From positions 1 to 23,071 of the IMG/VR virus record IMGVR_UViG_3300042892_000788: a DNA stretch of 23,071 nt; one strand, written 5' to 3'. The translations under genes were made by a program, and so were the position numbers. The notes below the pieces were generated by a model that had not been told where the DNA came from, made no database searches, and saw only the letters and a list, made by a program, of their open reading frames with translations. Positions 7,383-16,960 of this stretch are shown here, piece by piece. The stretch is from a virus. Every line of letters begins with the position of its first letter. The first letter of the stretch is position 1.

Positions 7383-7510
7383 GTGGGTCTTGGCCGCTCG
7401 CGTGTTGTGAAAAAATGGGGGTCCGGGGGGGGTACCGGCGCGGGTGCGGTCGAGTCCGTTCGGATTTGCGCGCGATTTCGTTAGCGATTCGTACCGCATA
7501 TGTCTAGCGG
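7383..7510. other. Non-coding gap with G8 run, candidate packaging (cos) region
   Basis: This stretch lies between the HNH gene and the terminator hairpin. It contains an unusual run of eight G (7425-7432) inside GTCCGGGGGGGGTACCGG and an A6 tract at 7410-7415. In many cos-type phages the HNH gene, the cohesive-end site and the terminase genes lie side by side, and cohesive ends are often GC-rich. I infer a cos-like role from place and composition only; no overhang can be fixed from sequence alone. Confidence 0.3.
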
Positions 7511-11141: not shown

Positions 11142-11506
11142 AGTTTCCCCTTTCGTATGTCGGCGATAACGTCGCCGAACGTACCACTAAACCATTCCGT
11201 ACCGTGATCCGGTAGCCATCGGGCAGACCATTGCGCCACGTCCGGTACGCCACGGGTCCGCCGGACCACGATCGGCAGTCGGTCCGGTCCCGCTTGCGTT
11301 TCCGCTTGCCTGCACCATGACGGCCACGCCGACGCGGCTACGTCTTTAACTTCAATCACTACGCCCGGTATGGCGTCAATGTCGCCCGGTTGCCGTCCGT
11401 CGCCCGCTAAATAGCGGCGAGCGTCCGGGTAGCCGTTGTCGCGTAACCAGTTAACTACCTTGCGTTCAGCATCGGCACCACGCCGCCGAGAAGCCGCACC
11501 GGTCAC
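11138..11506 (-). CDS. Holliday-junction-resolvase-like nuclease
   Basis: The 122-aa protein has the PD-(D/E)xK fold signature. An N-terminal helix carries E14 (RRGADAERKVVNWLR), then D42 and D44 in QPGDIDAIP and E52-V-K54 in VVIEVKDV. This set fits Hjc-like or related phage resolvases and small endonucleases that process recombination and replication branches. The start lies within the 3' end of the methyltransferase gene and the stop overlaps the WhiB start. With an ERF recombinase upstream, a role in phage recombination or in concatemer processing is likely. A restriction partner for the methyltransferase cannot be excluded. Confidence 0.78.
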   Translation of the reverse strand: MTGAASRRRGADAERKVVNWLRDNGYPDARRYLAGDGRQPGDIDAIPGVVIEVKDVAASAWPSWCRQAETQAGPDRLPIVVRRTRGVPDVAQWSARWLPDHGTEWFSGTFGDVIADIRKGKL

Positions 11507-12579
11507 GGGTTAAACGCCTTACCAGTAACGCGCGCAAGGATATGCGCGGCGAGTCGCGGCGGTACCGCGTTCCCTACTTGCTGAAACTGTTTACTTTTAG
11601 AACCTTGTAACGGATAATCCGCCGGGAACGATTGCAAAACAAGCGCGTCGTTTATGCTAATACGGACGGACCCGGCGCGGTCCTGTCGTGGTCGAGTGAG
11701 GTCAACGCCGGGTCCGGCGACGATATCGGGACAAAAAGAACCGACAAGGGTCGTAGCGGGACGGGTAAACCACCACGCTTCCGTCTGACCTGTTAGTGCC
11801 GGTGCCGGTGCCGGTGCCGATGCCGGTACGGTTTGCGCGTCCTCACGCGTACCGCCCTTCACCCATCCACGACCCGTATTAACCGACCATTCGCCACGCT
11901 CTATTTCTCGTTTGATAGTTTCGTACGCACCCGAACCGCCATGCATAAGAGGAGAAGCCCTAGCCGTTAAGGTCCACGCCGGTTTAGGTCGACCCCATCC
12001 GAGCGCGTCAGCCATAGATACCCACGGTCGTAACGCATCACCAAAAAGCGACGGTTCCGGGTGTCGGTCGTGCGTCGGGTTCGGCGGTCCGATCGGCCCC
12101 ATACGAGAAGCCACTAAAATAGCGCGTCGCCTAGTTTGCGGTACTCCATAGTCCGCAGCGTTTAAAACGCCCGACCAAGTGCTATAGCCAAGCTTACGTA
12201 GTTCCGTTTCGTAGTCACGCCATACCGGTAACGCGGGCGGTACCTGTTCGCATGCTATCCACTCCGGCCGTAATCCCTCAGACCAGCGCAGCACCTCGCG
12301 AATAAGCTGCCCGCGTTCCCCTTCAATACCGGCACGTTTACCGGCTAACGAAAAGTCTTGGCAAGGCGGCGACGCGATTAAACCCGTAACCCGATCGCCA
12401 AACTGCTCAAGAGGATAAGCGGCTATATCGGTTCTTATAGTCGCGTGACCGGCAGCGGCGCGAGTCTCGCACGCGGCAGCGTCCCACTCTAAACCGATCT
12501 CCGTAGCGTGCAGCTCCGGCGAAAGCATACGTAAACCCTCAGACCAGCCGCCCGGACCCGCGAATAGGTCAACGATCAC
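11503..12579 (-). CDS. C5-cytosine DNA methyltransferase
   Basis: I choose the GTG at 12579 (358 aa) because it overlaps the stop of the 31-aa membrane gene as GTGA and begins directly at motif I; the upstream extension shadows that gene. Motif I is VDLFAGPGGWSEGL (3-16). Motif IV is SPPCQDFSL with catalytic C73. EQV (111-113) stands where ENV is usual, QTRRRAILVAS (148-158) is motif VIII, and VGNAVPP near 335 is motif X. The target domain (about 160-305) holds an Ala-Pro run. It would methylate phage DNA to protect it from host restriction; no matching restriction gene is evident. Confidence 0.93.
   Translation of the reverse strand: MIVDLFAGPGGWSEGLRMLSPELHATEIGLEWDAAACETRAAAGHATIRTDIAAYPLEQFGDRVTGLIASPPCQDFSLAGKRAGIEGERGQLIREVLRWSEGLRPEWIACEQVPPALPVWRDYETELRKLGYSTWSGVLNAADYGVPQTRRRAILVASRMGPIGPPNPTHDRHPEPSLFGDALRPWVSMADALGWGRPKPAWTLTARASPLMHGGSGAYETIKREIERGEWSVNTGRGWVKGGTREDAQTVPASAPAPAPALTGQTEAWWFTRPATTLVGSFCPDIVAGPGVDLTRPRQDRAGSVRISINDALVLQSFPADYPLQGSKSKQFQQVGNAVPPRLAAHILARVTGKAFNP
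11797..11826. repeat. Hexamer tandem repeat inside the methyltransferase gene
   Basis: TGCCGG is repeated five times in a row (the fourth unit has A for the final G). Read on the minus strand it encodes alternating Ala-Pro within the target-recognition region. The unit is two codons, so copy changes would keep the frame and only alter linker length. Confidence 0.6.
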
Positions 12580-12671
12580 AACGCACCCGCCGCGATTAAA
12601 TAAACAAAAAACATAACTACCCATACGATCGCGCAGACCGCGACCATCGGCCATACCGGTTCTCTATCCAT
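12576..12671 (-). CDS. 31-aa single-pass membrane peptide
   Basis: The frame reads MDREPVWPMVAVCAIVWVVM and continues FFVYLIAAGAL, one long hydrophobic segment after a short acidic start. The ATG overlaps the HNH gene end by eight bases and the TGA overlaps the GTG of the methyltransferase. That bridging of neighbours is the main support. Function unknown; such peptides are frequent in actinophage early operons. Confidence 0.6.
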   Translation of the reverse strand: MDREPVWPMVAVCAIVWVVMFFVYLIAAGAL

Positions 12672-13979: not shown

Positions 13980-14251
13980 TGCGTACGCTCCCGCTGCCAG
14001 TTATACGTTTCTTCCATCATCCGGGCGCGATCCTCTGACGCCCGGTAACGCTGTTCGCGTGCCTGTTCGCGTTTCGTTTCCGCGCGGTGATGCACCAGTA
14101 ACAGACCGATACCGGCCGTAGCCGAAACCAAGGTCAGCAACGCGTAAACGATCGTCCCGGCAGCTATAGACGTTTCTATAAACCAGTTCAGCGTAAACAA
14201 TGCGAAACCGATAAACGCGAGAGCGGCACCGTACTTAGCTGCGCTATTCAT
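13970..14251 (-). CDS. 93-aa membrane protein with charged cytosolic tail
   Basis: Two membrane segments are clear, AALAFIGFALFTLNWFI (about 9-25) and TIVYALLTLVSATAGIGLLL (33-52). They are followed by a long charged helix (HHRAETKREQAREQRYRASE onward) with coiled-coil character. It overlaps the previous gene by eight bases. A membrane anchor for another early protein or a superinfection-exclusion factor are possibilities, but nothing decides between them. Confidence 0.7.
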   Translation of the reverse strand: MNSAAKYGAALAFIGFALFTLNWFIETSIAAGTIVYALLTLVSATAGIGLLLVHHRAETKREQAREQRYRASEDRARMMEETYNWQRERTQWN

Positions 14252-14663
14252 TGTCGCCGCCCGTCGCGATCGTTACCCGGTCGCCGTGGTCAAACGCGAA
14301 CCATTCGTTACGCGTTGTCTTAACGGTTACGCCGTGGCGACGTTCTTTAATTTCCTCGACCCGATGCCACCATCCGCCGACCCGGATTTGGTCGCCTACG
14401 TTTACGTCTTCAATATCTACCGAACGCGTCGAAGTGTTGAGACGTTCGAAAGGGTCGCGGGCTTTTAGTTCAGTCCCGGCGAGCTGCGTCGCGTTGTATT
14501 CGTCTAGTGCTTTGCGTAGCGCTGCGGTCGCCTTTGTGAGCTGGTCGAGAAGCGCGGCGGGATCGTCGCCGGAGAATAGGAGACCCTTAAAATTTACAAG
14601 CGGTCGCCCGGTCTTAGTTACGGAAGCGTAAATAAACTGCGCTTCGTTTTCGATTACGTACAT
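14244..14663 (-). CDS. 139-aa hypothetical protein
   Basis: The N-terminal half (MYVIENEAQFIYASVTKTGR ... LLFSGDDPAALLDQLTKATA) forms strands and a helix. The C-terminal half (about 85-135) is a small beta-rich unit, IEDVNVGDQIRVGGWWHRVE followed by VTVKTTRNEWFAFDHGDRVT, of a type seen in small phage SH3-like or Hint-like folds. A GGGGAAAGA Shine-Dalgarno sequence precedes the ATG. It is the first gene after the structured non-coding stretch, so its translation may be influenced by it. No family recognised. Confidence 0.7.
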   Translation of the reverse strand: MYVIENEAQFIYASVTKTGRPLVNFKGLLFSGDDPAALLDQLTKATAALRKALDEYNATQLAGTELKARDPFERLNTSTRSVDIEDVNVGDQIRVGGWWHRVEEIKERRHGVTVKTTRNEWFAFDHGDRVTIATGGDNE

Positions 14664-14878
14664 TCTTTCCCCTATCTGTTTGGTTAATGGTCTACTACTC
14701 GCCGTCCGATAAGACGAAACCGGTACTCATATGGTGCGGCTATGGCCCGTAGTATTCCGATAGCCGTACCGGTGACGGGTGGCGGGTACCCGGAGTCGCG
14801 CGCCTTCCTAAGTTACGCGACTCGCCGCTATTTATAGAGCGACCACCGATACGACTACCGCAATACTACGCGGCCTAC
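14664..14878 (-). other. 215-base non-coding region, promoter-like box and folded elements
   Basis: I find no gene in this stretch; the longest frame is 11 codons. Near its upstream end the minus strand carries TATAAA (14831-14836), a possible -10 box, though no good -35 lies 16-19 bases before it. Several perfect inverted repeats follow. The region separates the first set of small early genes from the recombination genes, so an internal promoter with a structured leader is plausible. Confidence 0.5.
14719..14823 (-). ncRNA. Candidate structured RNA (three perfect inverted repeats)
   Basis: GAGTCGCG at 14793-14800 pairs with CGCGACTC at 14816-14823 (15-base loop). Directly beside it is the palindrome CGGGTACCCG (14783-14792). 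Beyond that, ACCGGTAC at 14719-14726 pairs with GTACCGGT at 14766-14773, enclosing a second stem, CGGCTAT (14737-14743) with ATAGCCG (14760-14766). All pairings are exact and the region has no gene. It may be a regulatory leader, a small RNA or a protein-binding DNA site. No tRNA features or T-run are seen. Strand is assumed from neighbouring genes. Confidence 0.5.
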
Positions 14879-15214
14879 CTACTCTCTCCTTAGTGTACGC
14901 GTTTCGAATAGGTCGGAAAATTCCGGGCGACGATCGACCAGTAGCCGGGCGTAGCGAGACGTAAAATCGTTGTCGATTCTGAACGGCTGCCCGGTCGTGG
15001 CACGTCGGTAGTTCCATCGCAGCACCTCTATTAGATATTTAATCCCTATGCGACCGTCTCCGTGTCGGTATTCCACGTCAGCGAGCTTTTCAAGCTCATC
15101 GGCTACCCACGGGTTTGCGTCGTGAAAGGCGCGAAACTTTTCGTCTATGGTCTCAAATTTGCCGGTCGTCGTTTGCCATGCCGGAAATAATGTAGGTGCT
15201 TCGTAGATGGTCAT
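14879..15214 (-). CDS. Conserved phage protein of unknown function (111 aa)
   Basis: I use the ATG at 15214, which has an AAGGGGACCGA Shine-Dalgarno stretch, over a GTG 16 codons upstream. The protein has the layout of a widespread phage family of unknown role: KFRAFHDANPWVADELEKLA, then GRIGIKYLIEVLRWNYRRAT, then NDFTSRYARLLVDRRPEFSD and FETRTLR. The pattern of a helix, the GIK..IEVLRW motif and (N/D)..TSRYARL is characteristic. It lies just upstream of the structured non-coding region. Confidence 0.8.
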   Translation of the reverse strand: MTIYEAPTLFPAWQTTTGKFETIDEKFRAFHDANPWVADELEKLADVEYRHGDGRIGIKYLIEVLRWNYRRATTGQPFRIDNDFTSRYARLLVDRRPEFSDLFETRTLRRE

Positions 15215-16183: not shown

Positions 16184-16233
16184 GCCTTTATTTTTCGAGC
16201 CTCTGACGTGGGGAAATGCACCGGAAAACGCAA

Positions 16234-16269
16234 AATGGCCCGGCTACCCGTGAAGGTAACCGGGCCATT
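16234..16269 (-). terminator. Terminator at the end of the late tail/lysis operon
   Basis: AATGGCCCGG (16234-16243) pairs with CCGGGCCATT (16260-16269). One mismatch separates this from a further TACC/GGTA pairing, and the loop has six bases. On the minus strand the stem runs into TTTT, then GC and a second TTTT. It lies between the last late gene and the early promoter, so it probably ends the late transcript. Confidence 0.8.
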
Positions 16270-16369
16270 CGCGACCGGCTCTAATGGTATTAGTTAGCGG
16301 ATGCTCCATTACGGTGCATACCGTCTATTCGGCGCGTGCAGGAATACGCGCCGTCGCTGAGCCGGAGAC

Positions 16370-16960
16370 CTACGCCACCCGCGTAACCGTACAAATAACC
16401 GACGGCACCGCCGGGCGAACCGGACCCGTCCGGGTACCCGCCGCCAGTAGCCTCATACTCGAATCGGGAGACGACCATACAAGCTCTACATACTGACCAG
16501 CGGTAAACGTATAAACGAAATTCCACGCCGCAACGATGCGCCTAGCGGACTGCTCTAGGGTTACATCCGTAGCGGTACGGGCAACGTCGGTACCGTTTAC
16601 ACGTAACCAAATAGTCGCGTCGTCTTGGCCGCCGTCGGTTTTATCTAGTTGCGCGGAGAATTGAACGTTATAGGTACCGGCGTTAGCGATCACGAGCCGC
16701 GACGTAGGCGACCCTACTGTTACGCCGTTGCTTTCTTCGGTCGTATTAAACCGGATAGGCGTAGCCGTATTTGCGGTGATCGTTTGCGTCGTCGAGTCGC
16801 TGAACGATCCGTAATAACCTTGCCACGTTGCGCCAGCCGGGCCCGTAGGACCGGAACCGCCCGCAGCGACGATAACGGGACCGGCAGACCGTACGACAAC
16901 ATCCGAAGACGCCGACCGTACGACTACATCCGTAACCCGAACCGTCACGTTGCTACTCAT
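16370..16960 (-). CDS. Collagen-motif plus jelly-roll virion protein
   Basis: The 196-aa protein has a short strand-rich N-terminus, a collagen-like GGSGPTGPAGA at about 34-44 and a C-terminal domain with C1q/TNF-like jelly-roll features (TATPIRFNTTEES, AGTYNVQFSAQLDKTDGGQD, IWLRVNGTDV, ARRIVAAWNFVYTFTAGQYV). Such trimeric domains are common in tail fibres and head decoration proteins that contact host surfaces. It is the last gene of the late operon and its start overlaps the previous stop (ATGA). Whether it sits on the tail or head cannot be told. Confidence 0.7.
   Translation of the reverse strand: MSSNVTVRVTDVVVRSASSDVVVRSAGPVIVAAGGSGPTGPAGATWQGYYGSFSDSTTQTITANTATPIRFNTTEESNGVTVGSPTSRLVIANAGTYNVQFSAQLDKTDGGQDDATIWLRVNGTDVARTATDVTLEQSARRIVAAWNFVYTFTAGQYVELVWSSPDSSMRLLAAGTRTGPVRPAVPSVICTVTRVA

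Follow-up and report, generated by a model that had tools for sequence, protein, structure and literature searches.

Tightly packed phages of about 30 kb spare little sequence for non-coding DNA, and a stretch without genes in the early region of such a phage raises the question of what it is kept for. Such a gap is found in the viral contig IMGVR_UViG_3300042892_000788, which was analysed at its full length of 23,071 bases (hereafter the window) and is coding almost wholly on the minus strand. A first-pass annotation, made from the sequence alone, had noted a dense set of exact inverted repeats in this gap and had proposed that it holds a new structured phage RNA, a translational leader for the following gene or a binding site. 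The analysis reported here indicates that the minus strand of the gap almost certainly codes for a structured RNA, about 133 nt long and conserved.

Genomic context of the gap

The window carries head genes of the terminase, portal and capsid families and also encodes an Erf-like annealing protein, a DNA methyltransferase, a RusA-like resolvase, WhiB-like proteins and a replication initiator. The large terminase is of the phrog_9 type, and because the nearest isolate by terminase is the Pontimonas phage phiPsal1 (45%), the host is presumably actinobacterial, perhaps a member of the Microbacteriaceae. No DNA-level relatives beyond chance were found among 50,697 phage records in a BLAST search with the 2-kb region around the element, and Erf and terminase searches of bacterial and archaeal genomes revealed no prophage relatives. 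In many relative contigs (L039, L042-L045, L048, L051 and L052), the large terminase is preceded by about 495-560 bases, and in phiPsal1 it starts at 528, which suggests a physical, cos-like genome end near window position 7400, across which the window contig reads. The DNA methyltransferase gene (11503-12654) is complete in the window and in G029, is represented only by a 22-aa end match in G028, G038 and G027 and by about 219 aa in G030, and appears to be either a present/absent or a decaying gene among these relatives.

The gap is real and, as annotated, contains no gene and is not followed by a T-run (Table 1). The RNA lies about 1.2 kb past the start of the presumed early operon, with 7 kb of genes ahead of it, and its 5' edge falls approximately 1-11 bases past the stop codon of the upstream gene (gene X). 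Neither a sigma-70 promoter nor an intrinsic terminator was recognised on the minus strand at the element, which is also absent from the list of terminator-like sites, 17 in number over both strands against 13.7 expected by chance. Two other hairpins of the minus strand were recorded in the window. The first (16233-16270), terminator-like with 17 bp and a short T-tract, is located between a tail-type gene (16370-16960) and the first small early genes and probably marks the boundary of the late and early operons. The second (1296-1390) is a long, near-perfect hairpin downstream of the major capsid gene; it lacks a T-run and is likely a terminator or processing hairpin, and it recurs in several relatives (L128 14220, L125 10441, L113 8556) and has another sequence in G007.

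Stability and architecture of the RNA

Folded in the direction of transcription, the whole gap reaches -97.6 kcal/mol (z = -5.5 relative to shuffled controls, against z = -2.2 for the opposite strand), and almost all of this excess lies in the core. The core alone gives -85.8 kcal/mol compared with a shuffled mean of -49.8 (z = -9.48), none of 1000 shuffles falling below -69.0, and its antisense fold is much weaker (z = -5.2). The leader between the core and the next gene (gene Y) is not unusually structured by itself (z = +0.95). In a fold scan of this phage and its relatives, the element ranks first of 20,598 scanned windows. Most of the remaining extreme folds are single hairpins, either terminator-like or post-capsid, or fall in coding sequence, with the exception of the fold in G007 described below; a long hairpin that shares bases with the end of a small gene in contig 3300032232_001056 (L119, 15961-16100, z = -8.75) is not a four-way structure.

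The predicted RNA is closed by a stem of 26-30 bp, formed in the mRNA sense by 14844-14875 with 14744-14774, from which three hairpins follow one another contiguously at a four-way junction before a lone U and the return of the helix. The inner helix P1 consists of 17 unbroken pairs in all seven members of the family, placing the G.G mismatch at exactly 17 bp from the junction, and the arm-3 loop ends in CCGCC in every member. In the outer helix, several two-sided changes are found in the 9-bp part, and the GGCC part is without covariation support; the model is less secure in these outermost GGCC pairs and in the outer stem of G007. Two further interactions were considered. A pseudoknot of loop 3 with the junction GGYGG was dropped, as those bases sit in covarying helices, and a switch between the leader (GUAGUA) and the 3' strand of the main stem, which by eye amounts to 8 bp in G029 and is weaker elsewhere, was judged unproven.

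Table 1. Coordinates of the gap, its flanking genes and the elements of the RNA in the window.
Feature	Position	Strand	Description
Gene X, upstream of the RNA	14879..15214	-	phrog_13625, 111 aa
Gap	14664-14878		Bounded by the stop codon of gene X (15214..14879, minus strand) and the start ATG at 14663
RNA core, 133 nt	14743..14875	-	Long closing stem, four-way junction, three arms; scores 120 bits with model R2 (E 4.5e-26)
Outer helix, 5' strand	14862..14875	-	9 bp (14862-14870 with 14748-14756), then GGCC (14872-14875 with 14744-14747)
G.G mismatch, first G	14861	-	Invariant in 7/7 members
Inner helix P1, 5' strand	14844..14860	-	17 bp with 14758-14774
Arm 1	14824..14843	-	6-bp hairpin, variable loop of 5-8 nt; two-sided change in 3/6 pairs
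Arm 2	14793..14823	-	Hairpin of 8-9 bp that begins with GAG; length and loop vary; contains stem 14793-14800/14816-14823
Arm 3	14776..14792	-	5-bp hairpin, 6-7 nt loop; two-sided change in 4/5 pairs
Lone unpaired U	14775	-	Between arm 3 and closing stem; invariant
Inner helix P1, 3' strand	14758..14774	-	Partner of 14844-14860
G.G mismatch, partner G	14757	-	Opposite 14861
Outer helix, 3' strand	14744..14756	-	Partner of 14862-14875
3' edge GGGCCAUA	14741..14748	-	GGGCCAU in all seven members (one with GGGCCAUG) though the 5' partner varies
Linker/leader	14664..14742	-	Separates the RNA from the start codon of gene Y; most members have two small hairpins here
RBS of gene Y, AGGGGAAAGAATG	14661-14673	-	Ordinary for this phage
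Gene Y, downstream of the RNA	14244..14663	-	139 aa

The exact repeats listed in the first-pass annotation are all present, and their density is unusual, with three exact stems of at least 7 bp within the 105 bases of 14719-14823 against a shuffle mean of 0.36 (P about 0.007). As elements of structure, only the stem included in arm 2 survives, being both predicted and conserved. The stems 14719-14726/14766-14773 and 14737-14743/14760-14766 are missing from the minimum free energy fold, since the main stem with which they compete is far stronger; G027 has lost their left arms altogether, and in G030, G038 and G029 these arms have a different sequence. G027, G029 and G007 also lack the 10-base palindrome (14783-14792), and what they conserve is the 5-bp hairpin with its CCGCC loop. 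The dominant element, a 34-nt imperfect inverted repeat (14741-14774/14844-14877), had been overlooked because it contains G-U pairs and one G.G mismatch.

Conservation and covariation among related phages

Relatives were sought in IMG/VR by means of the flanking genes, erf, the terminase and a DNA pattern, and six RNA-bearing contigs were identified beyond the window (G028, G030, G038, G027, G029 and G007). The most distant one, G007, was first spotted by the fold scan and is missed under the default filters of the covariance-model search; with filters off, a model built on the five close members assigns it 53.6 bits (E 7e-11), against 19 bits for its antisense. It shares only 41 of 98 paired positions (42% identity) and retains the 17-bp inner helix, the G.G mismatch, the unpaired U and the CCGCC loop of arm 3; when folded in a longer context, it shows a competing local hairpin. 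With model R2, all seven members score 95-120 bits in the sense orientation and 43-46 bits in antisense.

In the seven-member alignment, which was fitted to the model, 98.3% of the cells are paired; sliding the partners lowers this to 30-49%. Two-sided change was observed in 26 of the 49 pairs among these seven members, which represent about four distinct lineages, all of them phages with related early regions, and no measure was reached in any of 500 shuffles. An unfitted MAFFT alignment of six members, used as a check, gave the same consensus fold with two-sided change in 9 of 70 pairs. The element is on these figures a conserved structured RNA in the general sense, and the structured phage RNA suggested by the first-pass annotation is strongly supported by stability beyond shuffled controls, covariation in relatives and the lack of a corresponding Rfam family. 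The selected strand is the mRNA-sense RNA and not a DNA cruciform, because every member contains 3-6 G-U pairs but no more than one A.C. This strand asymmetry disfavours the DNA version of the binding site that had been proposed, and a site for a protein or RNA polymerase at the RNA level is possible.

Other candidates were discarded during the searches. Nine of 14 matches to the arm-3 hairpin pattern in IMG/VR had other structures; an R2 match in L155 (27.7 bits) was rejected, as it falls inside a coding gene that carries GC-rich DRSRP-type repeats; and a descriptor search over all loci returned many false matches in coding regions with 15-16 of 17 pairs. A gap near erf in Caudovirus D_HF2_7 (L162 1261-1565, z -2.3) folds into a long hairpin that is not four-way, and no comparable gap was found by erf in Arthrobacter phage Hum25.

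Neighbouring genes and linker

The locus has the same organisation in the seven members: a 68-aa zinc-finger-like gene and gene X flank the RNA upstream, and gene Y flanks it downstream, followed by a membrane-protein gene (or its counterpart) and erf. The immediate neighbours are exchanged between members. Gene X belongs to phrog_13625 in six of them and is an unrelated 118-aa gene in G007, and gene Y belongs to a 139-aa family in four phages and to a 63-76-aa family in three, these two families displaying a faint N-terminal similarity (hhalign probability 19%, E 0.0012). As judged from these comparisons, the conserved unit is the RNA rather than the neighbouring genes. The linker that separates the RNA from the start of Y is 79 nt long in the window and varies from about 43 to 90 nt among members, and both of its small hairpins are deleted in G027. 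The RBS of Y is not special, because AGGGGAAAGAATG recurs at several other gene starts. A start-associated motif, AGGGGAAAnAATG (a ribosome site of the Y type), has nine matches with at most two mismatches against 0.86 expected; the gene starts concerned in the window are 16105, 15212, 14661, 13804, 11139, 10089 and 7289, and the motif is also present in G007.

Possible roles of the RNA

We tentatively favour a discrete RNA that would be freed from the early transcript and work by way of a protein bound to it, a reading that is quite possible though short of probable. Because the RNA starts a few bases past the stop codon of X and a promoter or terminator of its own was not found, it would be transcribed within the early polycistronic transcript. 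The long near-perfect duplex would be a natural substrate for the double-strand RNase III of the host, and cleavage within it may release a stable small RNA that would be a functional unit in its own right, independent of the flanking genes. This RNA would most likely act by offering its junction, G.G site and arm-3 loop to a protein partner, which could be RNA polymerase or an RNA-binding protein of phage or host origin. The fixed position in one operon would suit a cis-acting role equally well. That the element represents a new class of phage RNA cut from the early transcript, the first of its architecture and acting in trans on the actinobacterial host or on the virion, is a speculative possibility; it might, for example, sequester a protein as a decoy, serve a phage enzyme as RNA cofactor or modify the polymerase.

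The main rival is a cis-acting RNA that would modify RNA polymerase by processive antitermination, similarly to HK022 put or EAR, and allow read-through of the remaining early operon. We consider it unlikely, although the location near the beginning of the presumed early operon, with 7 kb of genes still ahead, and the elaborate, fixed structure that is independent of the flanking genes are what such an RNA would display, and the HK022 putRNAs provide a precedent for cis action on polymerase over at least 10 kb (PMC9378689). No convincing intrinsic terminator is present downstream, given the count of terminator-like sites reported above, and the architecture is unlike that of put, which in lambdoid phages comprises two stem-loops over about 70 nt directly downstream of the early promoter (PMC9378689).

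Next comes a cis leader controlling the translation of Y, for example by binding the Y product, which would be close to the translational leader of the gene at 14663 envisaged in the first-pass annotation and which we regard as quite unlikely. The RNA always precedes Y at the linker distances given above, and the two Y families share the faint N-terminal similarity already mentioned; nevertheless, Y differs between members, neither the linker nor its hairpins are conserved, the RBS is the ordinary one of the phage, and a fold of -86 kcal/mol is too stable for switching by itself.

A plain duplex for processing or stabilising mRNA, without further function, is the third alternative. RNase III sites in the early mRNA of T7 uncouple upstream and downstream mRNA, and a long intergenic duplex in a co-directional operon, in whose outer stem the compensatory changes preserve pairing only, could do the same here. 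We find this improbable, as it leaves the conserved junction, the exact 17-bp spacing and the invariant G.G, U and CCGCC loop unexplained. Finally, a DNA element (a cruciform, a replication origin or a protein-binding inverted repeat) or a recombination anchor at a swapped-gene boundary might be read into the 34-nt inverted repeat and the exchange of genes on both sides, but it is very improbable in view of the G-U versus A.C asymmetry, the much weaker antisense fold and the low identity of G007, which leaves little homology for recombination.

The RNA likely does something important early in the infection of its apparent hosts, freshwater actinobacteria that are abundant and hard to culture, because 133 bases are kept for their shape while the paired positions diverge to 42% identity and the neighbouring genes are swapped. 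The covariance model and the fixed synteny make it easy to seek in metatranscriptomes, and its structural invariants (17 bp, G.G, CCGCC loop and single U) are open to mutation.

Comparison with known RNAs

Searches of Rfam 15 gave no match over the window at the gathering threshold, and none on the element up to E 10; in two distant members the only matches were chance ones outside the element. The closing stem with three arms recalls a tRNA, as do arm 3, whose 5 bp and 7-nt loop resemble a T arm, and the conserved GGGCCA near the 3' edge. However, the closing stem has 26-30 bp against the 7 bp of a tRNA acceptor stem, the junction is without linkers, the arm-3 loop (ACCCGCC, CCCGCC, ACCGCC or AACCGCC) lacks the T-loop consensus, and ARAGORN called no tRNA. 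The pRNA of phi29 is likewise a small phage-encoded junction RNA; it has a three-way junction, is encoded at the genome end and works with the packaging ATPase gp16, whereas the present RNA has a four-way junction and is encoded in the early region of a phage with a phrog_9-type large terminase.

EAR is an operon antitermination RNA element that acts by its structure. With it and the phage-borne put of HK022, the RNA has in common that it may act by structure, and a position in an early operon would fit; it differs from put in its 133 nt, in its four helices around a four-way junction and in its mid-operon location. GOLLD and ROOL are structured RNAs from phages and metagenomes that were known by covariation before any function was assigned (PMC12286853). 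These are homo-oligomeric and several hundred nt long, compared with 133 nt for the present RNA, which fits no Rfam family and, though it belongs to the broad known kind of structured phage RNAs, constitutes a new family.
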